From Notolepis coatsorum (Eukaryota; Chordata; Actinopteri; Aulopiformes; Paralepididae), in the NCBI GenBank assembly GCA_963971535.1, contig CAXASK010002072.1:27501-91500 (forward strand): a DNA stretch of 64,000 nucleotides, read 5' to 3'. Below, in pieces: positions 5,395 to 40,129 of this stretch. A model generated the notes under the pieces. It did not search any database. It was not told where the DNA came from and worked only from the letters and a program-made list of their open reading frames with translations. The position numbers and the translations under genes are program-made. Numbering within the stretch: position 1 is the stretch's first letter; every line of letters starts with the position of its first letter.

Positions 5395-5527
5395 CTGGAA
5401 CCATGTGTCAACTGCTGCACAGCATACCATTGCCCGTTCTGCAAGCCTGGTGTGTTTAAGCCAACGTTTAGGAGCAAGGTCTTAACACATCTGGACGGAC
5501 ACAAAAGGAAAGCAGTGCAGCACAAAG
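5395..5527 (+). CDS. Exon with first C2H2-type zinc finger
   Basis: The exon reads from a CCTCAG acceptor to an AAAG|GT donor at 5527/5528. It encodes a finger with CPFC, then KPGVFKPTFRSK and HLDGH, that is C-x2-C followed by H-x3-H, and ends in phase 1. I recall a multicopy uncharacterised fish family with CPFC..VFKPT-type fingers; no gene symbol is warranted. An alternative acceptor (GCACAG at 5,417-5,422) would shorten the exon and keep the finger. The initiator codon is not identified: the ATG at 5403 is in another frame and terminates within the exon. The role (nucleic-acid or protein binding) is only what finger motifs suggest. Confidence 0.6.
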
Positions 5528-5626
5528 GTATTCCCTGTTGTATTCATTGCATGTTGTTTTCTTGCACTGGTAACTCCTGTAAATGATGGACCAACATGTG
5601 GAAACAAAAGCATTGCAGTTTGACAT

Positions 5627-5746
5627 GCACCATCAGCCATAACTTTAAAACCACCTGCTTAAACAATTTTTTTCATGATTAAAAATAAACACTCTATAAA
5701 CACTGGTTTAAGCAGGTGGTTTTAATGTTATGGCTGATCGGTGTAC
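5627..5746. mobile_element. Mariner-type MITE in the zinc-finger gene intron
   Basis: The inverted ends read ATCAGCCATAAC(T/A)TTAAAACC and continue as CACCTGCTTAAAC on both arms. They enclose an AT-rich core of about 45 bp. ATCAGCCATAACATTAAAAC is the known terminus of a widespread fish Tc1/mariner family. No transposase is present. Confidence 0.8.
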
Positions 5747-5759
5747 ATATCTTTTCCAG

Positions 5760-5920
5760 ATCACACCATCTTTAAGTGCAATTTGGAATGCAGGCGCAAT
5801 GGTCACTTCCACTGTCCCTCCTGCAAAACCACACTGTTTGAGAAGAAAAAACGGTTTATAGCGCATCTGGCTGCACTGTGCAGGAGCAGCTCCCACAGTA
5901 CAGACACACTGCATCACTGA
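5760..5920 (+). pseudogene. 5' part of exon with second zinc finger, running into the minisatellite
   Basis: After a TTTTCCAG acceptor the phase matches the previous exon (G|AT gives Asp). The frame encodes FHCPSC, KTTLFEKKKRF and IAHLAALC, a CPSC..H..C finger. It then enters the first minisatellite unit as CRSSSHSTDTLHH and stops at TGA 5918-5920. The downstream half of the exon resumes at 31,184 in the same frame relative to the unit. This is strong evidence that the array arose inside this exon and that the stop is a consequence. Whether any transcript crosses the array is unknown. Confidence 0.65.
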
Positions 5921-8900
5921 GCAGCTCCCACAGTACAGAAACACTGCATCACTGAGCAGCTCCCACAGTACAGAAACACTGCATCACTGAGCAGCTCCCA
6001 CAGTACAGAAACACTGCATCACTGAGCAGCTCCCACAGTACAGAAACACTGCATCACTGAGCAGCTCCCACAGTACAGAAACACTGCATCACTGAGCAGC
6101 TCCCACAGTACAGAAACACTGCATCACTGAGCAGCTCCCACAGTACAGAAACACTGCATCACTGAGCAGGATCAGCTCCCACAGTACAGAAACACTGCAT
6201 CACTGAGCAGCTCCCACAGTACAGAAACACTGCATCACTGAGCAGCTCCCACAGTACAGAAACACTGCATCACTGAGCAGCTCCCACAGTACAGAAACAC
6301 TGCATCACTGAGCAGCTCCCACAGTACAGAAACACTGCATCACTGTGCAGCTCCCACAGTACAGAAACACTGCATCACTGAGCAGCTCCCACAGTACAGA
6401 CACACTGCATCACTGAGCAGCTCCCACAGTACAGAAACACTGCATCACTGTGCAGGAGCAGCTCCCACAGTACAGAAACACTGCATCACTGAGCAGCTCC
6501 CACAGTACAGAAACACTGCATCACTGAGCAGCTCCCACAGTACAGAAACACTGCATCACTGAGCAGGAGCAGCTCCCACAGTACAGAAACACTGCATCAC
6601 TGAGCAGCTCCCACAGTACAGAAACACTGCATCACTGAGCAGCTCCCACAGTACAGAAACACTGCATCACTGAGCAGCTCCCACAGTACAGACACACTGC
6701 ATCACTGAGCAGCTCCCACAGTACAGAAACACTGCATCACTGAGCAGCTCCCACAGTACAGAAACACTGCATCACTGAGCAGCTCCCACAGTACAGAAAC
6801 ACTGCATCACTGAGCAGCTCCCACAGTACAGAAACACTGCATCACTGAGCAGCTCCCACAGTACAGAAACACTGCATCACTGTGCAGGAGCAGCTCCCAC
6901 AGTACAGACACACTGCATCACTGAGCAGCTCCCACAGTACAGAAACACTGCATCACTGAGCAGCTCCCACAGTACAGAAACACTGCATCACTGAGCAGCT
7001 CCCACAGTACAGAAACACTGCATCACTGAGCAGCTCCCACAGTACAGAAACACTGCATCACTGAGCAGCTCCCACAGTACAGAAACACTGCATCACTGAG
7101 CAGCTCCCACAGTACAGAAACACTGCATCACTGAGCAGGAGCAGCTCCCACAGTACAGAAACACTGCATCACTGAGCAGGAGCAGCTCCCACAGTACAGA
7201 AACACTGCATCACTGAGCAGCTCCCACAGTACAGAAACACTGCATCACTGAGCAGCTCCCACAGTACAGAAACACTGCATCACTGAGCAGCTCCCACAGT
7301 ACAGACACACTGCATCACTGTGCAGGAGCAGCTCCCACAGTACAGAAACACTGCATCACTGTGCGGGAGCAGCTCCCACAGTACAGAAACACTGCATCAC
7401 TGAGCAGGAGCAGCTCCCACAGTACAGAAACACTGCATCACTGAGCAGCTCCCACAGTACAGAAACACTGCATCACTGTGCAGGAGCAGCTCCCACAGTA
7501 CAGAAACACTGCATCACTGAGCAGCTCCCACAGTACAGAAACACTGCATCACTGAGCAGCTCCCACAGTACAGAAACACTGCATCACTGAGCAGCTCCCA
7601 CAGTACAGAAACACTGCATCACTGTGCAGGAGCAGCTCCCACAGTACAGACACACTGCATCACTGTGCAGGAGCAGCTCCCACAGTACAGAAACACTGCA
7701 TCACTGAGCAGCTCCCACAGTACAGAAACACTGCATCACTGAGCAGCTCCCACAGTACAGAAACACTGCATCACTGAGCAGCTCCCACAGTACAGAAACA
7801 CTGCATCACTGAGCAGCTCCCACAGTACAGAAACACTGCATCACTGAGCAGCTCCCACAGTACAGACACACTGCATCACTGAGCAGCTCCCACAGTACAG
7901 ACAAACTGCATCACTGAGCAGCTCCCACAGTACAGAAACACTGCATCACTGAGCAGCTCCCACAGTACAGAAACACTGCATCACTGTGCAGGAGCAGCTC
8001 CCACAGTACAGACACACTGCATCACTGTGCAGGAGCAGCTCCCACAGTACAGAAACACTGCATCACTGTGCAGGAGCAGCTCCCACAGTACAGAAACACT
8101 GCATCACTGAGCAGCTCCCACAGTACAGAAACACTGCATCACTGAGCAGCTCCCACAGTACAGAAACACTGCATCACTGAGCAGCTCCCACAGTACAGAA
8201 ACACTGCATCACTGAGCAGCTCCCACAGTACAGACACACTGCATCACTGAGCAGCTCCCACAGTACAGAAACACTGCATCACTGAGCAGCTCCCACAGTA
8301 CAGAAACACTGCATCACTGAGCAGCTCCCACAGTACAGAAACACTGCATCACTGAGCAGCTCCCACAGTACAGAAACACTGCATCACTGAGCAGCTCCCA
8401 CAGTACAGAAACACTGCATCACTGAGCAGCTCCCACAGTACAGAAACACTGCATCACTGAGCAGCTCCCACAGTACAGAAACACTGCATCACTGAGCAGC
8501 TCCCACAGTACAGAAACACTGCATCACTGAGCAGCTCCCACAGTACAGAAACACTGCATCACTGAGCAGCTCCCACAGTACAGACACACTGCATCACTGA
8601 GCAGCTCCCACAGTACAGAAACACTGCATCACTGAGCAGCTCCCACAGTACAGAAACACTGCATCACTGAGCAGCTCCCACAGTACAGAAACACTGCATC
8701 ACTGAGCAGGAGCAGCTCCCACAGTACAGAAACACTGCATCACTGAGCAGCTCCCACAGTACAGAAACACTGCATCACTGAGCAGGAGCAGCTCCCACAG
8801 TACAGAAACACTGCATCACTGAGCAGCTCCCACAGTACAGAAACACTGCATCACTGTGCAGGAGCAGCTCCCACAGTACAGAAACACTGCATCACTGTGC

Positions 8901-11900
8901 AGCTCCCACAGTACAGACACACTGCATCACTGAGCAGCTCCCACAGTACAGAAACACTGCATCACTGAGCAGCTCCCACAGTACAGAAACACTGCATCAC
9001 TGAGCAGCTCCCACAGTACAGAAACACTGCATCACTGAGCAGCTCCCACAGTACAGAAACACTGCATCACTGAGCAGCTCCCACAGTACAGAAACACTGC
9101 ATCACTGAGCAGCTCCCACAGTACAGACACACTGCATCACTGTGCAGGAGCAGCTCCCACAGTACAGAAACACTGCATCACTGTGCAGGAGCAGCTCCCA
9201 CAGTACAGAAACACTGCATCACTGAGCAGCTCCCACAGTACAGAAACACTGCATCACTGAGCAGCTCCCACAGTACAGAAACACTGCATCACTGAGCAGC
9301 TCCCACAGTACAGACACACTGCATCACTGAGCAGCTCCCACAGTACAGAAACACTGCATCACTGTGCAGGAGCAGCTCCCACAGTACAGAAACACTGCAT
9401 CACTGAGCAGCTCCCACAGTACAGAAACACTGCATCACTGAGCAGCTCCCACAGTACAGAAACACTGCATCACTGAGCAGCTCCCACAGTACAGACACAC
9501 TGCATCACTGAGCAGCTCCCACAGTACAGAAACACTGCATCACTGTGCAGGAGCAGCTCCCACAGTACAGAAACACTGCATCACTGAGCAGCTCCCACAG
9601 TACAGAAACACTGCATCACTGAGCAGCTCCCACAGTACAGAAACACTGCATCACTGAGCAGCTCCCACAGTACAGAAACAATGCATCACTGAGCAGCTCC
9701 CACAGTACAGAAACACTGCATCACTGTGCAGCTCCCACAGTACAGAAACACTGCATCACTGAGCAGCTCCCACAGTACAGAAACACTGCATCACTGAGCA
9801 GCTCCCACAGTACAGAAACACTGCATCACTGAGCAGCTCCCACAGTACAGACACACTGCATCACTGAGCAGCTCCCACAGTACAGACACACTGCATCACT
9901 GAGCAGCTCCCACAGTACAGAAACACTGCATCACTGAGCAGCTCCCACAGTACAGAAACACTGCATCACTGTGCAGGAGCAGCTCCCACAGTACAGACAC
10001 ACTGCATCACTGTGCAGGAGCAGCTCCCACAGTACAGAAACACTGCATCACTGTGCAGGAGCAGCTCCCACAGTACAGAAACACTGCATCACTGAGCAGC
10101 TCCCACAGTACAGAAACACTGCATCACTGAGCAGCTCCCACAGTACAGAAACACTGCATCACTGAGCAGCTCCCACAGTACAGAAACACTGCATCACTGA
10201 GCAGCTCCCACAGTACAGAAACACTGCATCACTGTGCAGCTCCCACAGTACAGAAACACTGCATCACTGAGCAGCTCCCACAGTACAGAAACACTGCATC
10301 ACTGAGCAGCTCCCACAGTACAGAAACACTGCATCACTGAGCAGCTCCCACAGTACAGACACACTGCATCACTGAGCAGCTCCCACAGTACAGACACACT
10401 GCATCACTGAGCAGCTCCCACAGTACAGAAACACTGCATCACTGAGCAGCTCCCACAGTACAGAAACACTGCATCACTGTGCAGGAGCAGCTCCCACAGT
10501 ACAGACACACTGCATCACTGTGCAGGAGCAGCTCCCACAGTACAGAAACACTGCATCACTGTGCAGGAGCAGCTCCCACAGTACAGAAACACTGCATCAC
10601 TGAGCAGCTCCCACAGTACAGAAACACTGCATCACTGAGCAGCTCCCACAGTACAGAAACACTGCATCACTGAGCAGCTCCCACAGTACAGAAACACTGC
10701 ATCACTGAGCAGCTCCCACAGTACAGACACACTGCATCACTGAGCAGCTCCCACAGTACAGAAACACTGCATCACTGAGCAGCTCCCACAGTACAGAAAC
10801 ACTGCATCACTGAGCAGCTCCCACAGTACAGAAACACTGCATCACTGAGCAGCTCCCACAGTACAGAAACACTGCATCACTGAGCAGCTCCCACAGTACA
10901 GAAACACTGCATCACTGAGCAGCTCCCACAGTACAGAAACACTGCATCACTGAGCAGCTCCCACAGTACAGAAACACTGCATCACTGAGCAGCTCCCACA
11001 GTACAGAAACACTGCATCACTGAGCAGCTCCCACAGTACAGAAACACTGCATCACTGAGCAGCTCCCACAGTACAGACACACTGCATCACTGAGCAGCTC
11101 CCACAGTACAGAAACACTGCATCACTGAGCAGCTCCCACAGTACAGAAACACTGCATCACTGAGCAGCTCCCACAGTACAGAAACATTGCATCACTGAGC
11201 AGGAGCAGCTCCCACAGTACAGAAACACTGCATCACTGAGCAGCTCCCACAGTACAGAAACACTGCATCACTGAGCAGGAGCAGCTCCCACAGTACAGAA
11301 ACACTGCATCACTGAGCAGCTCCCACAGTACAGAAACACTGCATCACTGTGCAGGAGCAGCTCCCACAGTACAGAAACACTGCATCACTGTGCAGGAGCA
11401 GCTCCCACAGTACAGAAACACTGCATCACTGTGCAGCTCCCACAGTACAGACACACTGCATCACTGAGCAGCTCCCACAGTACAGAAACACTGCATCACT
11501 GAGCAGCTCCCACAGTACAGAAACACTGCATCACTGAGCAGCTCCCACAGTACAGAAACACTGCATCACTGAGCAGCTCCCACAGTACAGACACACTGCA
11601 TCACTGAGCAGCTCCCACAGTACAGAAACACTGCATCACTGTGCAGGAGCAGCTCCCACAGTACAGAAACACTGCATCACTGAGCAGCTCCCACAGTACA
11701 GAAACACTGCATCACTGAGCAGCTCCCACAGTACAGAAACACTGCATCACTGAGCAGCTCCCACAGTACAGACACACTGCATCACTGTGCAGCTCCCACA
11801 GTACAGAAACACTGCATCACTGAGCAGGAGCAGCTCCCACAGTACAGAAACACTGCATCACTGAGCAGCTCCCACAGTACAGAAACACTGCATCACTGAG

Positions 11901-14900
11901 CAGGACAGCTCCCACAGTACAGAAACACTGCATCACTGAGCAGCTCCCACAGTACAGACACACTGCATCACTGAGCAGCTCCCACAGTACAGACACACTG
12001 CATCACTGAGCAGCTCCCACAGTACAGAAACACTGCATCACTGAGCAGCTCCCACAGTACAGAAACACTGCATCACTGTGCAGGAGCAGCTCCCACAGTA
12101 CAGAAACACTGCATCACTGTGCAGGAGCAGCTCCCACAGTACAGAAACACTGCATCACTGAGCAGGAGCAGCTGCCACAGTACAGAAACACTGCATCACT
12201 GTGCAGGAGCAGCTCCCACAGTACAGAAACACTGCATCACTGAGCAGCTCCCACAGTACAGAAACACTGCATCACTGAGCAGGAGCAGCTCCCACAGTAC
12301 AGAAACACTGCATCACTGAGCAGCTCCCACAGTACAGAAACACTGCATCACTGAGCAGCTCCCACAGTACAGAAACACTGCATCACTGAGCAGCTCCCAC
12401 AGTACAGAAACACTGCATCACTGAGCAGCTCCCACAGTACAGAAACACTGCATCACTGAGCAGCTCCCACAGTACAGAAACACTGCATCACTGAGCAGCT
12501 CCCACAGTACAGAAACACTGCATCACTGAGCAGCTCCCACAGTACAGAAACACTGCATCACTGAGCAGCTCCCACAGTACAGAAACACTGCATCACTGAG
12601 CAGCTCCCACAGTACAGACACACTGCATCACTGAGCAGCTCCCACAGTACAGACACACTGCATCACTGAGCAGCTCCCACAGTACAGAAACACTGCATCA
12701 CTGAGCAGGAGCAGCTCCCACAGTACAGAAACACTGCATCACTGAGCAGCTCCCACAGTACAGAAACACTGCATCACTGAGCAGCTCCCACTGTACAGAA
12801 ACACTGCATCACTGAGCAGGAGCAGCTCCCACAGTACAGAAACACTGCATCACTGAGCAGGAGCAGCTCCCACAGTACAGAAACACTGCATCACTGAGCA
12901 GCTTCCACAGTACAGAAACACTGCATCACTGAGCAGCTCCCACAGTACAGAAACACTGCATCACTGTGCAGGAGCAGCTCCCACAGTACAGAAACACTGC
13001 ATCACTGAGCAGCTCCCACAGTACAGAAACACTGCATCACTGAGCAGCTCCCACAGTACAGAAACACTGCATCACTGAGCAGCTCCCACAGTACAGAAAC
13101 ACTGCATCACTGAGCAGGAGCAGCTCCCACAGTACAGAAACACTGCATCACTGAGCAGCTCCCACAGTACAGACACACTGCATCACTGAGCAGGAGCAGC
13201 TCCCACAGTACAGAAACACTGCATCACTGAGCAGCTCCCACAGTACAGAAACACTGCATCACTGAGCAGCTCCCACAGTACAGAAACACTGCATCACTGA
13301 GCAGCTCCCACAGTACAGAAACACTGCATCACTGAGCAGCTCCCACAGTACAGAAACACTGCATCACTGAGCAGCTCCCACAGTACAGAAACACTGCATC
13401 ACTGAGCAGCTCCCACAGTACAGAAACACTGCATCACTGAGCAGCTCCCACAGTACAGACACACTGCATCACTGAGCAGCTCCCACAGTACAGAAACACT
13501 GCATCACTGTGCAGGAGCAGCTCCCACAGTACAGAAACACTGCATCACTGAGCAGCTTCCACAGTACAGAAACACTGCATCACTGAGCTGCTCCCACAGT
13601 ACAGAAACACTGCATCACTGTGCAGGAGCAGCTCCCACTGTACAGAAACACTGCATCACTGAGCAGCTCCCACAGTACAGAAACACTGCATCACTGAGCA
13701 GCTCCCACAGTACAGAAACACTGCATCACTGAGCAGCTCCCACAGTACAGAAACACTGCATCACTGAGCAGCTCCCACAGTACAGAAACACTGCATCACT
13801 GAGCAGCTCCCACAGTACAGAAACACTGCATCACTGAGCAGCTCCCACAGTACAGAAACACTGCATCACTGAGCAGCTCCCACAGTACAGAAACACTGCA
13901 TCACTGAGCAGCTCCCACAGTACAGACACACTGCATCACTGAGCAGCTCCCACAGTACAGAAACACTGCATCACTGAGCAGCTCCCACAGTACAGAAACA
14001 CTGCATCACTGAGCAGCTCCCACAGTACAGAAACACTGCATCACTGAGCAGGAGCAGCTCCCACAGTACAGAAACACTGCATCACTGAGCAGCTCCCACA
14101 GTACAGAAACACTGCATCACTGAGCAGGAGCAGCTCCCACAGTACAGAAACACTGCATCACTGAGCAGCTCCCACAGTACAGAAACACTGCATCACTGTG
14201 CAGGAGCAGCTCCCACAGTACAGAAACACTGCATCACTGAGCAGCTCCCACAGTACAGACACACTGCATCACTGAGCAGCTCCCACAGTACAGAAACACT
14301 GCATCACTGAGCAGCTCCCACAGTACAGAAACACTGCATCACTGAGCAGCTCCCACAGTACAGAAACACTGCATCACTGAGCAGCTCCCACAGTACAGAA
14401 ACACTGCATCACTGAGCAGCTCCCACAGTACAGAAACACTGCATCACTGAGCAGCTCCCACAGTACAGACACACTGCATCACTGAGCAGCTCCCACAGTA
14501 CAGAAACACTGCATCACTGTGCAGGCAGCTCCCACAGTACAGAAACACTGCATCACTGAGCAGCTCCCACAGTACAGAAACACTGCATCACTGAGCAGCT
14601 CCCACAGTACAGAAACACTGCATCACTGAGCAGCTCCCACAGTACAGACACACTGCATCACTGAGCAGCTCCCACAGTACAGAAACACTGCATCACTGTG
14701 CAGAGCAGCTCCCACAGTACAGAAACACTGCATCACTGAGCAGCTCCCACAGTACAGAAACACTGCATCACTGAGCAGCTCCCACAGTACAGAAACACTG
14801 CATCACTGAGCAGCTCCCACAGTACAGACACACTGCATCACTGAGCAGCTCCCACAGTACAGAAACACTGCATCACTGAGCAGCTCCCACAGTACAGAAA

Positions 14901-17900
14901 CACTGCATCACTGAGCAGCTCCCACAGTACAGAAACACTGCATCACTGAGCAGCTCCCACAGTACAGAAACACTGCATCACTGAGCAGCTCCACAGTACA
15001 GAAACACTGCATCACTGAGCAGCTCCCACAGTACAGAAACACTGCATCACTGAGCAGCTCCCACAGTACAGAAACACTGCATCACTGAGCAGCTCCCACA
15101 GTACAGAAACACTGCATCACTGAGCAGCTCCCACAGTACAGAAACACTGCATCACTGAGCAGCTCCCACAGTACAGAAACACTGCATCACTGAGCAGCTC
15201 CCACAGTACAGAAACACTGCATCACTGAGCAGCTCCCACAGTACAGAAACACTGCATCACTGAGCAGCTCCCACAGTACAGAAACACTGCATCACTGAGC
15301 AGCTCCCACAGTACAGAAACACTGCATCACTGAGCAGCTCCCACAGTACAGAAACACTGCATCACTGAGCAGCTCCCACAGTACAGAAACACTGCATCAC
15401 TGAGCAGCTCCCACAGTACAGAAACACTGCATCACTGAGCAGCTCCCACAGTACAGAAACACTGCATCACTGAGCAGCTCCCACAGTACAGAAACACTGC
15501 ATCACTGAGCAGCTCCCACAGTACAGAAACACTGCATCACTGAGCAGCTCCCACAGTACAGAAACACTGCATCACTGAGCAGGAGCAGCTCCCACAGTAC
15601 AGAAACACTGCATCACTGAGCAGCTCCCACAGTACAGAAACACTGCATCACTGGCAGGAGCAGCTCCCACAGTACAGAAACACTGCATCACTGTGCAGCT
15701 CCCACAGTACAGACACACTGCATCACTGAGCAGCTCCCACAGTACAGAAACACTGCATCACTGAGCAGCTCCCACAGTACAGAAACACTGCATCACTGAG
15801 CAGCTCCCACAGTACAGAAACACTGCATCACTGAGCAGCTCCCACAGTACAGAAACACTGCATCACTGAGCAGCTCCCACAGTACAGAAACACTGCATCA
15901 CTGAGCAGCTCCCACAGTACAGACACACTGCATCACTGTTCGAGCAGCTCCCACAGTACAGAAACACTGCATCACTGGCAGAGCAGCTCCCACAGTACAG
16001 AAACACTGCATCACTGAGCAGCTCCCACAGTACAGAAACACTGCATCACTGAGCAGCTCCCACAGTACAGAAACACTGCATCACTGAGCAGCTCCCACAG
16101 TACAGAAACACTGCATCACTGAGCAGCTCCCACAGTACAGAAACACTGCATCACTGTGCAGGAGCAGCTCCCACAGTACAGAAACACTGCATCACTGAGC
16201 AGCTCCCACAGTACAGAAACACTGCATCACTGAGCAGCTCCCACAGTACAGAAACACTGCATCACTGAGCAGCTCCCACAGTACAGACACACTGCATCAC
16301 TGAGCAGCTCCCACAGTACAGAAACACTGCATCACTGTGCAGGAGCAGCTCCCACAGTACAGAAACACTGCATCACTGAGCAGCTCCCACAGTACAGAAA
16401 CACTGCATCACTGAGCAGCTCCCACAGTACAGAAACACTGCATCACTGAGCAGCTCCCACAGTACAGAAACACTGCATCACTGAGCAGCTCCCACAGTAC
16501 AGAAACACTGCATCACTGTGCAGCTCCCACAGTACAGAAACACTGCATCACTGAGCAGCTCCCACAGTACAGAAACACTGCATCACTGAGCAGCTCCCAC
16601 AGTACAGAAACACTGCATCACTGTGACAGGCCTCCCACAGTACAGACACACTGCATCACTGAGCAGCTCCCACAGTACAGAAACACTGCATCACTGAGCA
16701 GCTCCCACAGTACAGAAACACTGCATCACTGAGCAGCTCCCACAGTACAGAAACACTGCATCACTGTGCAGAGCAGCTCCCACAGTACAGAAACACTGCA
16801 TCACTGTGCAGGAGCAGCTCCCACAGTACAGAAACACTGCATCACTGAGCAGCTCCCACAGTACAGAAACACTGCATCACTGAGCAGCTCCCACAGTACA
16901 GAAACACTGCATCACTGAGCAGCTCCCACAGTACAGAAACACTGCATCACTGAGCAGCTCCCACAGTACAGAAACACTGCATCACTGAGCAGCTCCCACA
17001 GTACAGAAACACTGCATCACTGAGCAGCTCCCACAGTACAGAAACACTGCTCTGAGCACTGAGCACTCCCACAGTACAGAAACACTGCATCACTGAGCAG
17101 CTCCCACAGTACAGACACACTGCATCACTGAGCAGCTCCCACAGTACAGACACACTGCATCACTGAGCAGCTCCCACAGTACAGAAACACTGCATCACTG
17201 CCGGAGCAGCTCCCACAGTACAGAAACACTGCATCACTGAGCAGCTCCCACAGTACAGAAACACTGCATCACTGTCAGAGCAGCTCCCACATGCATCACT
17301 GTGCAGGAGCCTCCCACAGTACAGAAACACTGCATCACTGTGAGCAGCTCCCACAGTACAGAACACTGCATCACTGAGCAGCTCCACAGTACAGAAACAC
17401 TGNNNNNNNNNNNNNNNNNNNNNNNNNNNNNNNNNNNNNNNNNNNNNNNNNNNNNNNNNNNNNNNNNNNNNNNNNNNNNNNNNNNNNNNNNNNNNNNNNN
17501 NNNNNNNNNNNNNNNNNNNNNNNNNNNNNNNNNNNNNNNNNNNNNNNNNNNNNNNNNNNNNNNNNNNNNNNNNNNNNNNNNNNNNNNNNNNNNNNNNNNN
17601 NNAGAAACACTGCATCACTGAGCAGCTCCCACAGTACAGAAACACTGCATCACTGAGCAGCTCCCACAGTACAGAAACACTGCATCACTGAGCAGCTCCC
17701 ACAGTACAGAAACACTGCATCACTGAGCAGCTCCCACAGTACAGAAACACTGCATCACTGAGCAGCTCCCACAGTACAGAAACACTGCATCACTGAGCAG
17801 CTCCCACAGTACAGACACACTGCATCACTGAGCAGCTCCCACAGTACAGACACACTGCATCACTGAGCAGCTCCCACAGTACAGAAACACTGCATCACTG

Positions 17901-20900
17901 AGCAGCTCCCACAGTACAGAAACACTGCATCACTGAGCAGCTCCCACAGTACAGAAACACTGCATCACTGAGCAGCTCCCACAGTACAGAAACACTGCAT
18001 CACTGAGCAGCTCCCACAGTACAGAAACACTGCATCACTGAGCAGCTCCCACAGTACAGAAACACTGCATCACTGAGCAGCTCCCACAGTACAGACACAC
18101 TGCATCACTGTGCAGGAGCAGCTCCCACAGTACAGAAACACTGCATCACTGAGCAGGAGCAGCTCCCACAGTACAGAAACACTGCATCACTGAGCAGCTC
18201 CCAAAGTACTGACACACTGCATCACTGTGCAGGAGCAGCTCCCACAGTACAGAAACACTGCATCACTGTGCAGGAGCAGCTCCCACAGTACAGAAACACT
18301 GCATCACTGAGCAGGCAGCACCCACAGTACAGAAACACTGCATCACTGAGCAGCTCCCACAGTACAGAAACACTGCATCACTGAGCAGCTCCCACAGTAC
18401 AGAAACACTGCATCACTGAGCAGCTCCCACAGTACAGAAACACTGCATCACTGAGCAGCTCCCACAGTACAGAAACACTGCATCACTGAGCAGCGTCCCA
18501 CAGTACAGAAACACTGCATCACTGAGCAGCTCCCACAGTACAGAAACACTGCATCACTGAGCAGCTCCCACAGTACAGAAACACTGCATCACTGAGCAGC
18601 TCCCACAGTACAGAAACACTGCATCACTGAGCAGCTCCCACAGTACAGAAACACTGCATCACTGAGCAGCTCCCACAGTACAGAAACACTGCATCACTGA
18701 GCAGCTCCCACAGTACAGAAACACTGCATCACTGAGCAGCTCCCACAGTACAGAAACACTGCATCACTGAGCAGCTCCCACAGTACAGAAACACTGCATC
18801 ACTGAGCAGCTCCCACAGTACAGAAACACTGCATCACTGAGCAGCTCCCACAGTACAGACACACTGCATCACTGAGCAGCTCCCACAGTACAGACACACT
18901 GCATCACTGAGCAGCTCCCACAGTACAGAAACACTGCATCACTGTGCAGCTCCCACAGTACAGAAACACTGCATCACTGAGCAGCTCCCACAGTACAGAA
19001 ACACTGCATCACTGAGCAGCTCCCACAGTACAGAAACACTGCATCACTGAGCAGCTCCCACAGTACAGAAACACTGCATCACTGAGCAGCTCCCACAGTA
19101 CAGAAACACTGCATCACTGTGCAGCTCCCACAGTACAGACACACTGCATCACTGTGCAGGAGCAGCTCCCACAGTACAGAAACACTGCATCACTGAGCAG
19201 GAGCAGCTCCCACAGTACAGAAACACTGCATCACTGAGCAGCTCCCAAAGTACTGACACACTGCATCACTGTGCAGGAGCAGCTCCCACAGTACAGAAAC
19301 ACTGCATCACTGTGCAGGAGCAGCTCCCACAGTACAGAAACACTGCATCACTGAGCAGGAGCAGCACCCACAGTACAGAAACACTGCATCACTGAGCAGC
19401 TCCCACAGTACAGAAACACTGCATCACTGAGCAGCTCCCACAGTACAGAAACACTGCATCACTGAGCAGCTCCCACAGTACAGAAACACTGCATCACTGA
19501 GCAGCTCCCACAGTACAGAAACACTGCATCACTGAGCAGCTCCCACAGTACAGAAACACTGCATCACTGAGCAGGAGCAGCTCCCACAGTACAGAAACAC
19601 TGCATCACTGAGCAGCTCCCACAGTACAGAAACACTGCATCACTGAGCAGGAGCAGCTCCCACAGTACAGACACACTGCATCACTGAGCAGCTCCCACAG
19701 TACAGACACACTGCATCACTGAGCAGCTCCCACAGTACAGACACACTGCATCACTGAGCAGCTCCCACAGTACAGAAACACTGCATCACTGAGCAGGAGC
19801 AGCTCCCACAGTACAGAAACACTGCATCACTGAGCAGCTCCCACAGTACAGACACACTGCATCACTGAGCAGCTCCCACAGTACAGAAACACTGCATCAC
19901 TGAGCAGCTCCCACAGTACAGACACACTGCATCACTGAGCAGGAGCAGCTCCACAGTACAGAAACACTGCATCACTGAGCAGCTCCCACAGTACAGAAAC
20001 ACTGCATCACTGAGCAGCTCCCACAGTACAGAAACGCTGCATCACTGAGCAGCTCCACAGTACAGAAACACTGCATCACTGAGCAGCTCCCACAGTACAG
20101 AAACACTGCATCACTGAGCAGGCAGCTCCCACAGTACAGAAACACTGCATCACTGAGCAGCTCCCACAGTACAGAAACACTGCATCACTGAGCAGCTCCC
20201 ACAGTACAGAAACACTGCATCACTGTGCAGGAGCAGCTCCCACAGTACAGAAACACTGCATCACTGAGCAGCTCCCACAGTACAGAAACACTGCATCACT
20301 GAGCAGGAGCAGCTCCCACAGTACAGACACACTGCATCACTGAGCAGCTCCCACAGTACAGAAACACTGCATCACTGAGCAGCTCCCACAGTACAGAAAC
20401 ACTGCATCACTGAGCAGGAAGCTCCCACAGTACAGAAACACTGCATCACTGAGCAGCTCCACAGTACAGAAACACTGCATCACTGAGCAGCTCCCACAGT
20501 ACAGAAACACTGCATCACTGAGCAGCTCCCACAGTACAGAAACACTGCATCACTGAGCAGCTCCCACAGTACAGAAACACTGCATCACTGAGCAGCTCCC
20601 ACAGTACAGAAACACTGCATCACTGAGCAGCTCCCACAGTACAGACACACTGCATCACTGAGCAGCTCCCACAGTACAGAAACACTGCATCACTGAGCAG
20701 GAGCAGCTCCCACAGTACAGACACACTGCATCACTGAGCAGCTCCCACAGTACAGACACACTGCATCACTGAGCAGCTCCCACAGTACAGACACACTGCA
20801 TCACTGAGCAGCTCCCACAGTACAGACACACTGCATCACTGTGCAGGAGCAGCTCCCACAGTACAGAAACACTGCATCACTGAGCAGCTCCCACAGTACA

Positions 20901-23900
20901 GACACACTGCATCACTGAGCAGCTCCCACAGTACAGAAACACTGCATCACTGTGCAGGAGCAGCTCCCACAGTACAGAAACACTGCATCACTGAGCAGCT
21001 CCCACAGTACAGAAACACTGCATCACTGAGCAGCTCCCACAGTACAGAAACACTGCATCACTGAGCAGCTCCCACAGTACAGAAACACTGCATCACTGAG
21101 CAGCTCCCACAGTACAGAAACACTGCATCACTGAGCAGCTCCCACAGTACAGACACACTGCATCACTGAGCAGCTCCCACAGTACAGACACACTGCATCA
21201 CTGAGCAGCTCCCACAGTACAGAAACACTGCATCACTGAGCAGGAGCAGCTCCCACAGTACAGAAACACTGCATCACTGAGCAGGAGCAGCTCCCACAGT
21301 ACAGAAACACTGCATCACTGAGCAGGAGCAGCTCCCACAGTACAGAAACACTGCATCACTGAGCAGCTTCCACAGTACAGAAACACTGCATCACTGAGCA
21401 GCTCCCACAGTACAGAAACACTGCATCACTGAGCAGGAGCAGCTCCCACAGTACAGAAACACTGCATCACTGAGCAGCTCCCACAGTACAGAAACACTGC
21501 ATCACTGAGCAGCTCCCACAGTACAGAAACACTGCATCACTGAGCAGCTCCCACAGTACAGAAACACTGCATCACTGAGCAGGAGCAGCTCCCACAGTAC
21601 AGAAACACTGACACTGCATCACTGAGCAGCTCCCACAGTACAGACACACTGCATCACTGAGCAGGAGCAGCTCCCACAGTACAGAAACACTGCATCACTG
21701 AGCAGCTCCCACAGTACAGAAACACTGCATCACTGAGCAGCTCCCACAGTACAGAAACACTGCATCACTGAGCAGCTCCCACAGTACAGAAACACTGCAT
21801 CACTGAGCAGCTCCCACAGTACAGAAACACTGCATCACTGAGCAGCTCCCACAGTACAGAAACACTGCATCACTGAGCAGCTCCCACAGTACAGAAACAC
21901 TGCATCACTGAGCAGCTCCCACAGTACAGAAACACTGCATCACTGAGCAGCTCCCACAGTACAGAAACACTGCATCACTGAGCAGCTCCCACAGTACAGA
22001 AACACTGCATCACTGAGCAGCTCCCACAGTACAGAAACACTGCATCACTGAGCAGCTCCCACAGTACAGAAACACTGCATCACTGAGCAGCTCCCACAGT
22101 ACAGAAACACTGCATCACTGAGCAGCTCCCACAGTACAGAAACACTGCATCACTGAGCAGCTCCCACAGTACAGAAACACTGCATCACTGAGCAGGAGCA
22201 GCTCCCACAGTACAGAAACACTGCATCACTGAGCAGCTCCCACAGTACAGAAACACTGCATCACTGAGCAGGAGCAGCTCCCACAGTACAGAAACACTGC
22301 ATCACTGAGCAGGAGCAGCTCCCACAGTACAGAAACACTGCATCACTGAGCAGCTCCCACAGTACAGAAACACTGCATCACTGAGCAGCTCCCACAGTAC
22401 AGAAACACTGCATCACTGAGCAGCTCCCACAGTACAGACACACTGCATCACTGTGCAGGAGCAGCTCCCACAGTACAGAAACACTGCATCACTGTGCAGG
22501 AGCAGCTCCCACAGTACAGAAACACTGCATCACTGAGCAGCTCCCACAGTACAGAAACACTGCATCACTGAGCAGCTCCCACAGTACAGAAACACTGCAT
22601 CACTGAGCAGCTCCCACAGTACAGAAACACTGCATCACTGAGCAGCTCCCACAGTACAGACACACTGCATCACTGAGCAGCTCCCACAGTACAGAAACAC
22701 TGCATCACTGAGCAGCTCCCACAGTACAGAAACACTGCATCACTGAGCAGCTCCCACAGTACAGAAACACTGCATCACTGAGCAGCTCCCACAGTACAGA
22801 AACACTGCATCACTGAGCAGCTCCCACAGTACAGAAACACTGCATCACTGAGCAGCTCCCACAGTACAGAAACACTGCATCACTGAGCAGCTCCCACAGT
22901 ACAGAAACACTGCATCACTGAGCAGCTCCCACAGTACAGAAACACTGCATCACTGAGCAGCTCCCACAGTACAGAAACACTGCATCACTGAGCAGCTCCC
23001 ACAGTACAGACACACTGCATCACTGAGCAGCTCCCACAGTACAGAAACACTGCATCACTGAGCAGCTCCCACAGTACAGAAACACTGCATCACTGAGCAG
23101 CTCCCACAGTACAGAAACACTGCATCACTGAGCAGGAGCAGCTCCCACAGTACAGAAACACTGCATCACTGAGCAGCTCCCACAGTACAGAAACACTGCA
23201 TCACTGAGCAGGAGCAGCTCCCACAGTACAGAAACACTGCATCACTGAGCAGCTCCCACAGTACAGAAACACTGCATCACTGTGCAGGAGCAGCTCCCAC
23301 AGTACAGAAACACTGCATCACTGTGCAGCTCCCACAGTACAGACACACTGCATCACTGAGCAGCTCCCACAGTACAGAAACACTGCATCACTGAGCAGCT
23401 CCCACAGTACAGAAACACTGCATCACTGAGCAGCTAGCTCCCACAGTACAGAAACACTGCATCACTGAGCAGCTCCCACAGTACAGACACACTGCATCAC
23501 TGAGCAGCTCCCACAGTACAGAAACACTGCATCACTGTGCAGGAGCAGCTCCCACAGTACAGAAACACTGCATCACTGAGCAGCTCCCACAGTACAGAAA
23601 CACTGCATCACTGAGCAGCTCCCACAGTACAGAAACACTGCATCACTGAGCAGCTCCCACAGTACAGACACACTGCATCACTGTGCAGCTCCCACAGTAC
23701 AGAAACACTGCATCACTGAGCAGCTCCCACAGTACAGAAACACTGCATCACTGAGCAGCTCCCACAGTACAGAAACACTGCATCACTGAGCAGGAGCAGC
23801 TCCCACAGTACAGAAACACTGCATCACTGAGCAGCTCCCACAGTACAGACACACTGCATCACTGAGCAGCTCCCACAGTACAGACACACTGCATCACTGA

Positions 23901-26900
23901 GCAGCTCCCACAGTACAGAAACACTGCATCACTGAGCAGGAGCAGCTCCCACAGTACAGAAACACTGCATCACTGAGCAGGAGCAGCTCCCACAGTACAG
24001 AAGCACTGCATCACTGAGCAGGAGCAGCTCCCACAGTACAGAAACACTGCATCACTGAGCAGGAGCAGCTCCCACAGTACAGAAACACTGCATCACTGAG
24101 CAGGAGCAGCTCCCACAGTACAGAAACACTGCATCACTGAGCAGCTCCCACAGTACAGACACACTGCATCACTGAGCAGCTCCCACAGTACAGAAACACT
24201 GCATCACTGAGCAGCTCCCACAGTACAGACACACTGCATCACTGAGCAGCTCCCACAGTACAGAAACACTGCATCACTGTGCAGGAGCAGCTCCCACAGT
24301 ACAGAAACACTGCATCACTGTGCAGGAGCAGCTCCCACAGTACAGAAACACTGCATCACTGAGCAGGAGCAGCTCCCACAGTACAGAAACACTGCATCAC
24401 TGTGCAGGAGCAGCTCCCACAGTACAGAAACACTGCATCACTGAGCAGCTCCCACAGTACAGAAACACTGCATCACTGAGCAGGAGCAGCTCCCACAGTA
24501 CAGAAACACTGCATCACTGAGCAGCTCCCACAGTACAGAAACACTGCATCACTGAGCAGCTCCCACAGTACAGAAACACTGCATCACTGAGCAGCTCCCA
24601 CAGTACAGAAACACTGCATCACTGAGCAGCTCCCACAGTACAGAAACACTGCATCACTGAGCAGCTCCCACAGTACAGAAACACTGCATCACTGAGCAGC
24701 TCCCACAGTACAGAAACACTGCATCACTGAGCAGCTCCCACAGTACAGAAACACTGCATCACTGAGCAGCTCCCACAGTACAGAAACACTGCATCACTGA
24801 GCAGCTCCCACAGTACAGACACACTGCATCACTGAGCAGCTCCCACAGTACAGACACACTGCATCACTGAGCAGCTCCCACAGTACAGAAACACTGCATC
24901 ACTGAGCAGGAGCAGCTCCCACAGTACAGAAACACTGCATCACTGAGCAGGAGCAGCTCCCACAGTACAGAAACACTGCATCACTGAGCAGGAGCAGCTC
25001 CCACAGTACAGAAACACTGCATCACTGAGCAGCTTCCACAGTACAGAAACACTGCATCACTGAGCAGCTCCCACAGTACAGAAACACTGCATCACTGTGC
25101 AGGAGCAGCTCCCACAGTACAGAAACACTGCATCACTGAGCAGCTCCCACAGTACAGAAACACTGCATCACTGAGCAGCTCCCACAGTACAGAAACACTG
25201 CATCACTGAGCAGCTCCCACAGTACAGAAACACTGCATCACTGAGCAGGAGCAGCTCCCACAGTACAGAAACACTGCATCACTGAGCAGCTCCCACAGTA
25301 CAGACACACTGCATCACTGAGCAGGAGCAGCTCCCACAGTACAGAAACACTGCATCACTGAGCAGCTCCCACAGTACAGAAACACTGCATCACTGAGCAG
25401 CTCCCACAGTACAGAAACACTGCATCACTGAGCAGCTCCCACAGTACAGAAACACTGCATCACTGAGCAGCTCCCACAGTACAGAAACACTGCATCACTG
25501 AGCAGCTCCCACAGTACAGAAACACTGCATCACTGAGCAGCTCCCACAGTACAGAAACACTGCATCACTGAGCAGCTCCCACAGTACAGAAACACTGCAT
25601 CACTGTGCAGGAGCAGCTCCCACAGTACAGAAACACTGCATCACTGAGCAGCTTCCACAGTACAGAAACACTGCATCACTGAGCAGCTCCCACAGTACAG
25701 AAACACTGCATCACTGAGCAGCTCCCACAGTACAGAAACACTGCATCACTGAGCAGCTCCCACAGTACAGAAACACTGCATCACTGAGCAGCTCCCACAG
25801 TACAGAAACACTGCATCACTGAGCAGGAGCAGCTCCCACAGTACAGACACACTGCATCACTGAGCAGCTCCCACAGTACAGAAACACTGCATCACTGAGC
25901 AGGAGCAGCTCCCACAGTACAGAAACACTGCATCACTGAGCAGGAGCAGCTCCCACAGTACAGAAACACTGCATCACTGAGCAGCTCCCACAGTACAGAA
26001 ACACTGCATCACTGAGCAGCTCCCACAGTACAGAAACACTGCATCACTGAGCAGCTCCCACAGTACAGACACACTGCATCACTGTGCAGGAGCAGCTCCC
26101 ACAGTACAGAAACACTGCATCACTGTGCAGGAGCAGCTCCCACAGTACAGAAACACTGCATCACTGAGCAGGAGCAGCTCCCACAGTACAGAAACACTGC
26201 ATCACTGAGCAGCTCCCACAGTACAGACACACTGCATCACTGTGCAGGAGCAGCTCCCACAGTACAGAAACACTGCATCACTGAGCAGCTCCCACAGTAC
26301 AGAAACACTGCATCACTGAGCAGCTCCCACAGTACAGAAACACTGCATCACTGAGCAGCTCCCACAGTACAGAAACACTGCATCACTGTGCAGGACCAGC
26401 TCCCACAGTACAGAAACACTGCATCACTGTGCAGGAGCAGCTCCCACAGTACAGAAACACTGCATCACTGAGCAGCTCCCACAGTACAGACACACTGCAT
26501 CACTGAGCAGCTCCCACAGTACAGAAACACTGCATCACTGTGCAGGAGCAGCTCCCACAGTACAGAAACACTGCATCACTGAGCAGCTCCCACAGTACAG
26601 AAACACTGCATCACTGAGCAGCTCCCACAGTACAGAAACACTGCATCACTGTGCAGCTCCCACAGTACAGAAACACTGCATCACTGAGCAGCTCCCACAG
26701 TACAGAAACACTGCATCACTGAGCAGCTCCCACAGTACAGAAACACTGCATCACTGAGCAGCTCCCACAGTACAGACACACTGCATCACTGAGCAGCTCC
26801 CACAGTACAGACACACTGCATCACTGAGCAGCTCCCACAGTACAGAAACACTGCATCACTGAGCAGCTCCCACAGTACAGAAACACTGCATCACTGTGCA

Positions 26901-29900
26901 GGAGCAGCTCCCACAGTACAGACACACTGCATCACTGTGCAGGAGCAGCTCCCACAGTACAGAAACACTGCATCACTGAACAGGAGCAGCTCCCACAGTA
27001 CAGAAACACTGCATCACTGAGCAGCTCCCACAGTACAGAAACACTGCATCATTGAGCAGCTCCCACAGTACAGAAACACTGCATCACTGAGCAGCTCCCA
27101 CAGTACAGAAACACTGCATCACTGAGCAGCTCCCACAGTACAGACACACTGCATCACTGAGCAGCTCCCACAGTACAGAAACACTGCATCACTGAGCAGC
27201 TCCCACAGTACAGAAACACTGCATCACTGAGCAGCTCCCACAGTACAGAAACACTGCATCACTGAGCAGCTCCCACAGTACAGAAACACTGCATCACTGA
27301 GCAGCTCCCACAGTACAGAAACACTGCATCACTGAGCAGCTCCCACAGTACAGAAACACTGCATCACTGAGCAGGAGCAGCTCCCACAGTACAGACACAC
27401 TGCATCACTGAGCAGCTCCCACAGTACAGAAACACTGCATCACTGAGCAGCTCCCACAGTACAGAAACACTGCATCACTGAGCAGCTCCCACAGTACAGA
27501 AACACTGCATCACTGAGCAGCTCCCACAGTACAGAAACACTGCATCACTGAGCAGCTCCCACAGTACAGAAACACTGCATCACTGAGCAGCTCCCACAGT
27601 ACAGAAACACTGCATCACTGAGCAGCTCCCACAGTACAGAAACACTGCATCACTGAGCAGCTCCCACAGTACAGAAACACTGCATCACTGAGCAGCTCCC
27701 ACAGTACAGAAACACTGCATCACTGTGCAGGAGCAGCTCCCACAGTACAGAAACACTGCATCACTGAGCAGCTTCCACAGTACAGAAACACTGCATCACT
27801 GAGCAGCTCCCACAGTACAGAAACACTGCATCACTGTGCAGGAGCAGCTCCCACAGTACAGAAACACTGCATCACTGAGCAGCTCCCACAGTACAGAAAC
27901 ACTGCATCACTGAGCAGCTCCCACAGTACAGAAACACTGCATCACTGAGCAGCTCCCACAGTACAGAAACACTGCATCACTGAGCAGCTCCCACAGTACA
28001 GAAACACTGCATCACTGAGCAGCTCCCACAGTACAGAAACACTGCATCACTGAGCAGCTCCCACAGTACAGAAACACTGCATCACTGAGCAGCTCCCACA
28101 GTACAGAAACACTGCATCACTGAGCAGCTCCCACAGTACAGACACACTGCATCACTGAGCAGCTCCCACAGTACAGACACACTGCATCACTGAGCAGCTC
28201 CCACAGTACAGAAACACTGCATCACTGTGCAGCTCCCACAGTACAGAAACACTGCATCACTGAGCAGCTCCCACAGTACAGAAACACTGCATCACTGAGC
28301 AGCTCCCACAGTACAGAAACACTGCATCACTGAGCAGCTCCCACAGTACAGAAACACTGCATCACTGAGCAGCTCCCACAGTACAGAAACACTGCATCAC
28401 TGTGCAGCTCCCACAGTACAGACACACTGCATCACTGTGCAGGAGCAGCTCCCACAGTACAGAAACACTGCATCACTGAGCAGGAGCAGCTCCCACAGTA
28501 CAGAAACACTGCATCACTGAGCAGCTCCCAAAGTACTGACACACTGCATCACTGTGCAGGAGCAGCTCCCACAGTACAGAAACACTGCATCACTGTGCAG
28601 GAGCAGCTCCCACAGTACAGAAACACTGCATCACTGAGCAGGAGCAGCACCCACAGTACAGAAACACTGCATCACTGAGCAGCTCCCACAGTACAGAAAC
28701 ACTGCATCACTGAGCAGCTCCCACAGTACAGAAACACTGCATCACTGAGCAGCTCCCACAGTACAGAAACACTGCATCACTGAGCAGCTCCCACAGTACA
28801 GAAACACTGCATCACTGAGCAGCTCCCACAGTACAGAAACACTGCATCACTGAGCAGGAGCAGCTCCCACAGTACAGAAACACTGCATCACTGAGCAGCT
28901 CCCACAGTACAGAAACACTGCATCACTGAGCAGGAGCAGCTCCCACAGTACAGACACACTGCATCACTGAGCAGCTCCCACAGTACAGACACACTGCATC
29001 ACTGAGCAGCTCCCACAGTACAGACACACTGCATCACTGAGCAGCTCCCACAGTACAGAAACACTGCATCACTGAGCAGGAGCAGCTCCCACAGTACAGA
29101 AACACTGCATCACTGAGCAGCTCCCACAGTACAGACACACTGCATCACTGAGCAGCTCCCACAGTACAGAAACACTGCATCACTGAGCAGCTCCCACAGT
29201 ACAGACACACTGCATCACTGAGCAGCTCCCACAGTACAGAAACACTGCATCACTGAGCAGCTCCCACAGTACAGAAACACTGCATCACTGAGCAGCTCCC
29301 ACAGTACAGAAACGCTGCATCACTGAGCAGCTCCCACAGTACAGAAACACTGCATCACTGAGCAGCTCCCACAGTACAGAAACACTGCATCACTGAGCAG
29401 GAGCAGCTCCCACAGTACAGAAACACTGCATCACTGAGCAGCTCCCACAGTACAGAAACACTGCATCACTGAGCAGCTCCCACAGTACAGAAACACTGCA
29501 TCACTGTGCAGGAGCAGCTCCCACAGTACAGAAACACTGCATCACTGAGCAGCTCCCACAGTACAGAAACACTGCATCACTGAGCAGGAGCAGCTCCCAC
29601 AGTACAGACACACTGCATCACTGAGCAGCTCCCACAGTACAGAAACACTGCATCACTGAGCAGCTCCCACAGTACAGAAACACTGCATCACTGAGCAGGA
29701 GCAGCTCCCACAGTACAGAAACACTGCATCACTGAGCAGCTCCCACAGTACAGAAACACTGCATCACTGAGCAGCTCCCACAGTACAGAAACACTGCATC
29801 ACTGAGCAGCTCCCACAGTACAGAAACACTGCATCACTGAGCAGCTCCCACAGTACAGAAACACTGCATCACTGAGCAGCTCCCACAGTACAGAAACACT

Positions 29901-31183
29901 GCATCACTGAGCAGCTCCCACAGTACAGACACACTGCATCACTGAGCAGCTCCCACAGTACAGAAACACTGCATCACTGAGCAGGAGCAGCTCCCACAGT
30001 ACAGACACACTGCATCACTGAGCAGCTCCCACAGTACAGACACACTGCATCACTGAGCAGCTCCCACAGTACAGACACACTGCATCACTGAGCAGCTCCC
30101 ACAGTACAGACACACTGCATCACTGTGCAGGAGCAGCTCCCACAGTACAGAAACACTGCATCACTGAGCAGCTCCCACAGTACAGACACACTGCATCACT
30201 GAGCAGCTCCCACAGTACAGAAACACTGCATCACTGTGCAGGAGCAGCTCCCACAGTACAGAAACACTGCATCACTGAGCAGCTCCCACAGTACAGAAAC
30301 ACTGCATCACTGAGCAGCTTCCACAGTACAGACACACTGCATCACTGTGCAGGAGCAGCTCCCACAGTACAGACACACTGCATCACTGAGCAGCTCCCAC
30401 AGTACAGACACACTGCATCACTGTGCAGGAGCAGCTCCCACAGTACAGAAACACTGCATCACTGAGCAGCTCCCACAGTACAGACACACTGCATCACTGT
30501 GCAGGAGCAGCTCCCACAGTACAGACACACTGCATCACTGAGCAGCTCCCACAGTACAGAAACACTGCATCACTGAGCAGCTCCCACAGTACAGAAACAC
30601 TGCATCACTGAGCAGCTCCCACAGTACAGACACACTGCATCACTGAGCAGGAGCAGCTCCCACAGTACAGACACACTGCATCACTGAGCAGCTCCCACAG
30701 TACAGAAACACTGCATCACTGAGCAGCTCCCACAGTACAGAAACACTGCATCACTGAGCAGCTCCCACAGTACAGAAACACTGCATCACTGAGCAGCTCC
30801 CACAGTACAGAAACACTGCATCACTGAGCAGCTCCCACAGTACAGACACACTGCATCACTGAGCAGCTCCCACAGTACAGAAACACTGCATCACTGAGCA
30901 GCTCCCACAGTACAGAAACACTGCATCACTGTGCAGGAGCAGCTCCCACAGTACAGAAACACTGCATCACTGAGCAGCTCCCACAGTACAGACACACTGC
31001 ATCACTGAGCAGGAGCAGCTCCCACAGTACAGAAACACTGCATCACTGAGCAGCTCCCACAGTACAGACACACTGCATCACTGAGCAGCTCCCACAGTAC
31101 AGACACACTGCATCACTGAGCAGCTCCCACAGTACAGAAACACTGCATCACTGAGCAGCTCCCACAGTACAGAAACACTGCAT
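5874..31183 (+). repeat. 25.3-kb minisatellite of 35-bp and 41-bp units in a zinc-finger exon
   Basis: Head-to-tail units of 35 bp (GAGCAGCTCCCACAGTACAG followed by A/CAACACTGCATCACT) are mixed with 41-bp units carrying an extra GAGCAG-type hexamer. About 700 units are present. Common variants are GACACACTG versus GAAACACTG and ACTGTGC versus ACTGAGC. Rare variants (GCTTCCACAG, CCAAAGTACTGAC, AAACGCTGC) recur in blocks and mark internal segmental duplications. Both unit lengths are 2 mod 3, so the frame shifts at each unit, and the TGA in ACTGAGC closes every frame within a few units. The 62-66-codon frames inside it are not genes. The array is interrupted by an assembly gap. Confidence 0.98.
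17403..17602. other. Assembly gap, 200 N
   Basis: Exactly 200 N inside the minisatellite, probably a fixed-size placeholder. The 800 bp to its left contain many malformed units, for example near 16,621, 17,050 and 17,275-17,345. The true array length is therefore unknown. Confidence 0.98.
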
Positions 31184-31264
31184 GTGGATGGAGGTGTCGG
31201 AGAGAGTAAGGTCAAAGAACTGGTTGTCCGTGCAGCCAGTGAGAACGCCATCAGCACTGCCACT

Positions 31265-31606
31265 GACGAGCCTGCCACCAAGGTTGTCATTGTGGAGGCT
31301 ACCAGTGAGAACCAGCTCACTAATAAGCACGATGCTACAGTAGCCACTGTACAAGTGAGGAGGAGCAGCACTGACACTGACGAGCCTGCCACCAAGGTTG
31401 TCATTGTGGAGGCTACCAGTGAGAACCAGCTCACTAATAAGCACGATGCTACAGTAGCCACTGTACAAGTGAGGAGGAGCAGCACTGACACTGACGAGCC
31501 TGCCACCAAGGTTGTCATTGTGGAGGCTACCAGTGAGAACCAGCTCACTAATAAGCACGATGCTACAGTAGCCACTGTACAAGTGAGGAGGAGCAAGATT
31601 ATATCG
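31265..31606 (+). repeat. 114-bp in-frame tandem triplication
   Basis: Units start at 31,265, 31,379 and 31,493 (period 114 = 38 codons). Apart from the junction bases the copies are identical by eye, so the expansion is recent. The third copy runs out in GAGGAGGAGCAAG, where the finger-coding sequence starts. Confidence 0.95.
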
Positions 31607-31860
31607 GTGGCCTGTCCCCAGTGTGCAGTAGTCATCAACAAGAAGAATCTGAAACGTCACATGGAAAGAAAACACTCTGAACCAGGTTCCATGGAAGTTA
31701 CTTCAAAATCACATCTGCGAAGTGAATGTTTGGATTCTGACAACAGTGTCTATGCTGTTAAAAGAAAAATAAAATATTACTTGTCCTATTATTGTCCATT
31801 ATTACATGGCGTTTTCACATTCGCCGAAATGCTTGCTTGTGATTGGTCAATAGCCCCCCG

Positions 31861-31914
31861 ACAGCGGTCATTATTAGACAATAATGACCGCTGTGGGACA
31901 ATAATGACCGCTGT
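31861..31914. repeat. Perfect palindrome plus third arm copy
   Basis: ACAGCGGTCATTATT (31,861-31,875) and its exact inverse (31,880-31,894) are separated by 4 bases. The right arm is repeated at 31,900-31,914. This lies in the sequence that appears to replace the C-terminus of the zinc-finger gene. Confidence 0.9.
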
Positions 31915-32103
31915 GCGCAGCTGTTCGCAATCAAGCCCACTGACACACACTGTTTCAGTGCAATTAGACACTGCCGGTGTTCTGCTGCCGGCGATGACAG
32001 GGGGCGGAGCGACGAGCGGAGCCAGAACGCAGCCAGAACCAGTGTTGCGAGTCGATGTAAAATGAATTAGGTATATTGTTAGTAAGTTAGCCATGTAATA
32101 AGC

Positions 32104-40115: not shown

Positions 40116-40129
40116 GTGGGGATCTACCG

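Follow-up and report, generated by a model that had tools for sequence, protein, structure and literature searches.

A coding-exon segment of a TIR transposon as the probable origin of a 35/41-bp minisatellite in Notolepis coatsorum

A 41-bp coding segment within one copy of a terminal-inverted-repeat (TIR) transposon very probably gave rise, by tandem duplication inside an exon, to a minisatellite that has since grown to hundreds of units. The array lies in a stretch of 64,000 nucleotides from Notolepis coatsorum (the window). Seen directly were the single-unit sister copies, the array edges with their common codon phase, a stop inside the array, both ends of the transposon and a series of arrays of different sizes. 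In the mechanism we propose, the segment would first have been duplicated in tandem within exon B of a transposon copy, and later growth to hundreds of units would have come from renewed duplication of individual units as well as blocks, presumably through slippage and unequal exchange. The transposon copy in the window would have been expendable, and the array may also have been copied from one element to another.

The array and its reading frame

As assembled, the array measures 25,310 bp and contains about 690 units with an internal assembly gap included (Table 1). TRF returned a period of 35 and 697 copies at 5884-31183, unit splitting gave 687 pieces (522 of 35 bp, 141 of 41 bp and 24 of other lengths), and an alternative splitting rule gave 686 units. 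The gap of 200 N (17403-17602) falls inside the array, and these are therefore assembled figures for an array whose real length is uncertain. The "about 700 copies" put forward in an earlier sequence-only reading of this DNA is close to what the assembly shows, but the count spans the gap and a sister contig covers 33.9 kb between array edges. Most of the off-length pieces (20/24) lie around the gap, at 14.5-20.5 kb, and rare unit types make up 24/165 units in that region versus 26/522 in the rest of the array; the units of the gap region look like poor sequence at contig ends. Outside this region the array is highly uniform, and the only common variants are a T/A site, an A/C site and the 6-bp step. 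The founder 41-bp unit (T form, matching the left array edge) is CACTGTGCAGGAGCAGCTCCCACAGTACAGAMACACTGCAT, and the 35-bp unit is the same unit minus one hexamer. Both lengths are 2 mod 3, in agreement with the earlier statement that the period is not divisible by three, and the two periods are separated by a single 6-bp step. We use minisatellite for head-to-tail units of 10-100 bp that are nearly identical and variable in number; the near-identical 35/41-bp units run head to tail and differ in number between copies, as in a minisatellite or young satellite.

The order of units is not random. The top repeated block comprises 67 units, found at 18590-21023 and again at 27873-30307, and scores 119 versus a maximum of 20 among 20 shuffles, so that the array is built of repeated blocks, with the caveat that one partner of this block lies near the gap and may reflect an assembly effect. 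That the array size or its inner blocks are mostly an assembly artefact would be in keeping with the 200-N gap, the indel-rich units around it and the recurrence of the 67-unit block 9.28 kb away with one partner near the gap, but we consider this improbable: each of four other fetched stretches (L009-L012) contains at least 5.8 kb of clean array, the edges on contig C3899 are 33.9 kb apart (an edge-to-edge distance), and a 26-base unit junction has 2406 exact copies genome-wide versus 0 in a reversed control.

Table 1. Features of the transposon copy and array in the window.
Feature	Position	Strand	Basis or remark
Left terminal inverted repeat	4482..4606	+	95.4% over 131 bp to reverse complement of 45436-45566
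Exon A, C2H2-type finger YHCPFCKPGVFKPTFRSKVLTHLDGHKRKAV	5395..5527 (putative 5' limit)	+	Open frame
Putative GT-AG intron	5528..5759	+	Sequence
Exon B 5' of array, C2HC-type finger	5760..5873	+	Last Cys codon falls in unit 1
35/41-bp unit array	5874..31183	+	Tandem-repeat search and unit splitting; 200-N gap inside
Exon B 3' of array, linker and third finger CPQCAVVINKKNLKRHMERKH	31184..31766	+	Frame read
In-frame coding repeat, 3 x 114 bp (38 aa)	31252..31595	+	Tandem-repeat search
Other sequence, unshared with coding copies compared	31767..44699	.	Two LINE reverse transcriptases and two 5S-like stretches
3' non-coding transposon part	44700..45287	+	88-92% to 3' parts of L017, L018, L021, L022, L028
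Right terminal inverted repeat	45436..45566	+	Pairs with left repeat; similar ends in other copies

Both flanks of the array can be read as protein. The exon A frame recurs in the fetched copies L015, L017, L021 and L024, and the predicted intron after it contains a 33-bp inverted-repeat element (5632-5664 and 5706-5738). Translated, exon B to the left of the array gives DHTIFKCNLECRRNGHFHCPSCKTTLFEKKKRFIAHLAALC and continues into unit 1 as RSSSHSTDTLHH, with a TGA in unit 2; the translation of the left flank thus runs into the array as ...FIAHLAALCRSSSHSTDTLHH*, and that of the right flank is SSHSTETLHVDGGVGESK... The last unit exits as SSHSTETLH into VDGGVGESK, followed by the third finger. 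The in-frame reading of both flanks and the shared codon phase of the first and last units, on which the sequence-only reading had built its case, are borne out by these translations. The amplified 41-bp segment codes for the last zinc-ligand Cys and a Ser/Thr-rich linker. Pfam and PDB searches with the zinc fingers of the window returned weak matches only, and relatives of the two flank peptides and of the unit were sought among viral contigs without a match. A ZIP transporter match (29.7 bits, cut-off 35.1) from a Pfam search of six frame-stretches around the array flanks was discarded since it covers an (ATA)n tract.

An array of T-form 41-bp founder units is stop-free in all three frames, and the A form introduces the TGA. 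The stop consequently arose by a one-base change and not by the first duplication. As about 19% of 20,000 shuffles of the 41-mer are likewise open in three frames, this openness is no signal of selection. With each third added 41-bp unit the downstream frame would be kept.

Single-unit copies and the transposon that carries them

In a search of 3.42 Gb of genome, exon B was found in at least 40 dispersed copies at 94-100% identity (40 scored of 220 candidates), most of which match only up to the end of unit 1. Exon B is therefore not part of a single gene, and the ordinary host zinc-finger gene assumed previously gives way to the 5' exons of a multicopy TIR transposon. Array states were assigned by pairing left-edge and right-edge matches at 40 left-edge places. 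A single unit is present at 28/40 places, 27 by edge spacing and one (L026) by sequence; 24 of the 27 fall into two length classes separated by one codon just upstream of the unit, and the other 3 lie within a few bases. Of the remaining places, one has two units (C871), one has 48 units (C2779), both array ends are spanned in 2/40 (C1689, the array in the window, 25.3 kb; C3899, 33.9 kb), an array appears with no right edge found in 3/40 (C4244, C1157, C843), and 5/40 are without class.

The frame is open through the unit in 14/15 fetched single-unit copies, with no call for the 15th (L027), and reads AHLA(A)LCRSS(S/F)HSTETLHVDGGVGESK. The single-unit ancestor predicted from the window is thereby represented in the same genome, and its sister copies, together with the stop in the array, support the proposal that a coding segment was amplified inside an exon and broke its frame. 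Both flanks adjoin in these copies and hence derive from one gene, contrary to the possibility that they came from unrelated genes. One single-unit copy, L041 (C22:672501-676500), already carries the T-to-A change, which in its frame turns the last zinc-ligand Cys into Ser with no stop.

Alternatively, the array could be an intron or be removed by splicing so that protein is still made. The array does contain 787 GT and 2960 AG sites, and cryptic splicing of coding tandem repeats has a precedent in human duplicated genes (PMC2812944). Scored with human site frequencies, however, the array donors have a median of -1.4 and a best value of 5.3 versus 4.1 for the exon A donor, the acceptors a median of -3.5 and a best value of 2.1 versus 0.5 for the exon B acceptor, and the two top array sites sit in poor sequence near the gap. 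The single-unit copies moreover require no intron at the site: they run straight through it, with nothing at the array-edge positions in those fetched. Splicing is thus very unlikely, and the scores lend no support to the earlier suggestion that the array is spliced out.

The copies share a sharp left end, and several also a right end, in the form of long inverted repeats CAATAGGGTCCAGCTGC...GCTGCAGCTGGACCCTATTG; in L017 these measure 140 bp at 85.7%. L028 is bordered by an exact 8-bp target duplication, ACTTTCGT (8/8), and L021 by a 7/8 duplication in a low-complexity flank; none was seen in L017, L018 and L020, which have shared flanks, or in the window copy. In fuller copies the third finger is followed by a long multi-exon protein, which may resemble fish HMGXB3-like proteins. 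A by-eye join of three exons, taken from copies L015 and L016, matched CxC4 (PF18717), a KDZ-associated cysteine cluster, at E 3.9e-7 (30.4 bits versus a cut-off of 26.9). The best single CxC4 exon (L024) alone stayed below the cut-off at E 0.022, and the open frames expected to hold the KDZ catalytic core had no Pfam match. Zisupton produces 8-bp target duplications, according to PMC12730594. The inverted repeats, the 8-bp duplication in one copy and the CxC4 match are likenesses to Zisupton/KDZ transposons, and on these features the element is probably a TIR DNA transposon that is KDZ/Zisupton-like. No internal coding minisatellite is reported for such transposons in the open-access literature searched.

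The window copy extends over ~4482-45566, about 41 kb with nested insertions. Its coding homology to other copies ends at 31766 or 31733, CxC4 is absent from the three forward frames of 31700-34401, and homology resumes only in the 3' non-coding part after intervening other sequence. The window copy is accordingly without the transposase part.

Arrays of different sizes at one site

Copies of the transposon differ widely in what they carry at this spot. L015 has two 48-bp units, in frame. In L037 (chromosome-size contig C9) there are 22 units of 45/48 bp, mostly 45, which are in frame throughout, with a stop just upstream of them. The exact 48-bp junction has a single genome match, on C871, and the L037 junction differs from it by one base. 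Arrays of 41/35-bp units are out of frame both in L043 (chromosome-size contig C29), where ~15 units are accompanied by a ~1-kb insertion near the first unit, and in L013 (C2779), with 48 units. The 41-bp form accounts for 12/14 spacings or units in L043, 26/47 in L013 and 141/663 in the window. The 35-bp form thus appears commoner in longer arrays, a comparison of three arrays that may share ancestry. The in-frame arrays of 48 bp and 45/48 bp, like the openness of the founder in three frames, make the earlier claim that growth is selectable only after loss of function, or if the array is spliced out, too strict.

The 114-bp in-frame coding repeat downstream also varies, with 1 to 9 anchor matches per fetched locus covering it (9 in L018, 8 in L019, 6 in L041 and 1 to 4 in the other 13 of L013-L028). 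Another fetched stretch, L042 (C36:1487501-1493500), contains ~50 units of the 35/41 array at 2100-4103, bordered on one side by another repeat and on the other by a gap of 200 N; it is probably an assembly chimera rather than an array that has moved out of its element.

The upstream flank of the window is common to five left-edge contigs (C4244, C3899, C1689, C1157, C843), and its downstream flank recurs in three more fetched right-edge stretches, with 99.3-99.7% identity across the longest pieces. These contigs and stretches are alleles or recent duplicates. Their unit strings are alike at the start and the end and different inside, a likeness of this window clade to hypervariable minisatellites.

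The array in L013 has a different relationship. The copies closest to L013, at 0.7-0.9%, carry one or two units, and L013 does not appear among the nine copies nearest to the window (the ninth at 1.95%). It carries the state of the other group at 48/48 group-separating columns, many of which lie in shared gaps and so represent fewer events, and the last of these columns is only 23 bp before the array. Nevertheless, the junction, each of the four unit heads and the A/C variant (A19C) are common to L013 and the window. A window-like array on the other branch fits best with copying of array sequence between elements; comparison of the copies suggests such copying as the best explanation for L013, with an independent origin at a prone site as its main rival. 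Under that rival, the 41/35-bp arrays would have arisen separately in each element from a segment prone to this duplication, and no exchange would be needed. In its favour, duplications at this spot also occur with junctions of 48 and 45 bp, a hairpin can be drawn for the segment, 11-bp direct repeats that match imperfectly border it at a spacing of 48 bp, and the T-to-A change occurs in the single-unit copy L041. The junction, four unit heads and A19C common to L013 and the window clade argue against separate origins, which we regard as rather unlikely. An old array ancestral to the family, with the single-unit copies as collapsed arrays, could also explain why identical unit types recur in three or more elements whose flanks differ (L013, L043 and the window clade). 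It would need collapse to exactly one intact in-frame unit in 28/40 places, including the nearest relatives of L013, and we hold it to be highly improbable.

The founder segment lies between GCATCTGGCTG and GCATGTGGATG, which are alike at 9/11 positions and exactly 48 bp apart. Short direct repeats are proposed as minisatellite starters in a model outlined in PMC6947457, and slippage between repeats at this spacing would yield a 48-bp duplication; the 41-bp junction would correspond to the register of the 48-bp junction minus 7 bp. Similar pairs of short direct repeats occur, with no array, at four or more further places in the 5' part of L017, so a flanking repeat is no sufficient cause. The hairpin of the unit ranks 18th among 1576 windows in L017 and 26th among 2468 in L016, with the inverted-repeat ends ranking higher. 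In folding, dimers of the 41-bp founder outdo 200/200 shuffles, but the 35-bp form on the same strand is unremarkable, with 54/200 shuffles as good.

Taken further, the segment might be a recurrent birthplace of minisatellites, with at least two founding junctions, one of 48 bp (shortened to 45) and one of 41 bp (shortened to 35). Arrays with units divisible by three would have stayed short and readable, those at 2 mod 3 would have run away, and copying between elements would have contributed to a range from 1 to ~900 units. We put this fuller reading forward tentatively, at somewhat below an even chance.

Relation to known systems and other features of the window

It is established that transposons seed satellites, reading frames included (PMC4079207 and PMC9659126). 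The Tetris foldback transposon of Drosophila virilis, with its TIR-220 satellite, is similar to the present case in that, according to PMC4079207, repeats in a DNA transposon vary between copies and seed longer arrays, with target duplications of ~8 bp. The same paper places the Tetris repeats, of ~220 bp, in non-coding inverted repeats and describes copies without reading frames, whereas in the present element the seed lies within a coding exon and the single-unit coding state is kept in many copies. Satellites resembling the reading frames of CR1, LINE-1 ORF2 and LTR gag (PMC9659126) likewise draw tandem repeats from the coding part of mobile elements; as presented there, the connection is similarity-based, and here intermediates and the empty site occur in one genome. 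Exonic VNTRs share the position of a tandem repeat within a coding exon; according to PMC12776774, units whose length is no multiple of three usually disrupt the coding sequence and are eliminated by selection. The present repeat differs from that account in being 2 mod 3 at hundreds of units and in a mobile element. An exonic VNTR of a host gene is excluded by the at least 40 dispersed copies, the 2 mod 3 period and the TGA.

Within the open-access literature searched, what is new is a coding segment not divisible by three that can be traced from one unit to hundreds within one genome. The birth of a satellite is usually inferred with the intermediates already lost. With an unexpanded site in many copies and arrays of 2, ~15, 22, 48 and several hundred units at one base, some in frame and some not, it becomes possible to test what seeds a minisatellite, whether growth is limited by the reading frame, and whether conversion spreads arrays among dispersed transposon copies.

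The window contains several other features. Two 5S-rRNA-like stretches on the minus strand (34327-34445 and 35111-35228; 94.8 and 63 bits) lie between the transposon halves and may, as a guess, represent a 5S-derived element. On the minus strand at ~52324-52497 is a KDM6B-like histone demethylase exon (JmjC), with a PDB E of 2.8e-30 to human KDM6B and a Pfam JmjC E of 5.4e-13. A 1243-aa open frame on the plus strand (56712-60443) has endonuclease and reverse transcriptase domains, which mark it as a LINE with a long intact frame, and a 279-aa frame lies upstream of it at 55274-56113. Further very pure tandem repeats are ATA x 139 at 3109-3525, TAT x 72 at 47244-47459 and a 25-bp unit x 8.6 at 48460-48674, the last at 100% identity.
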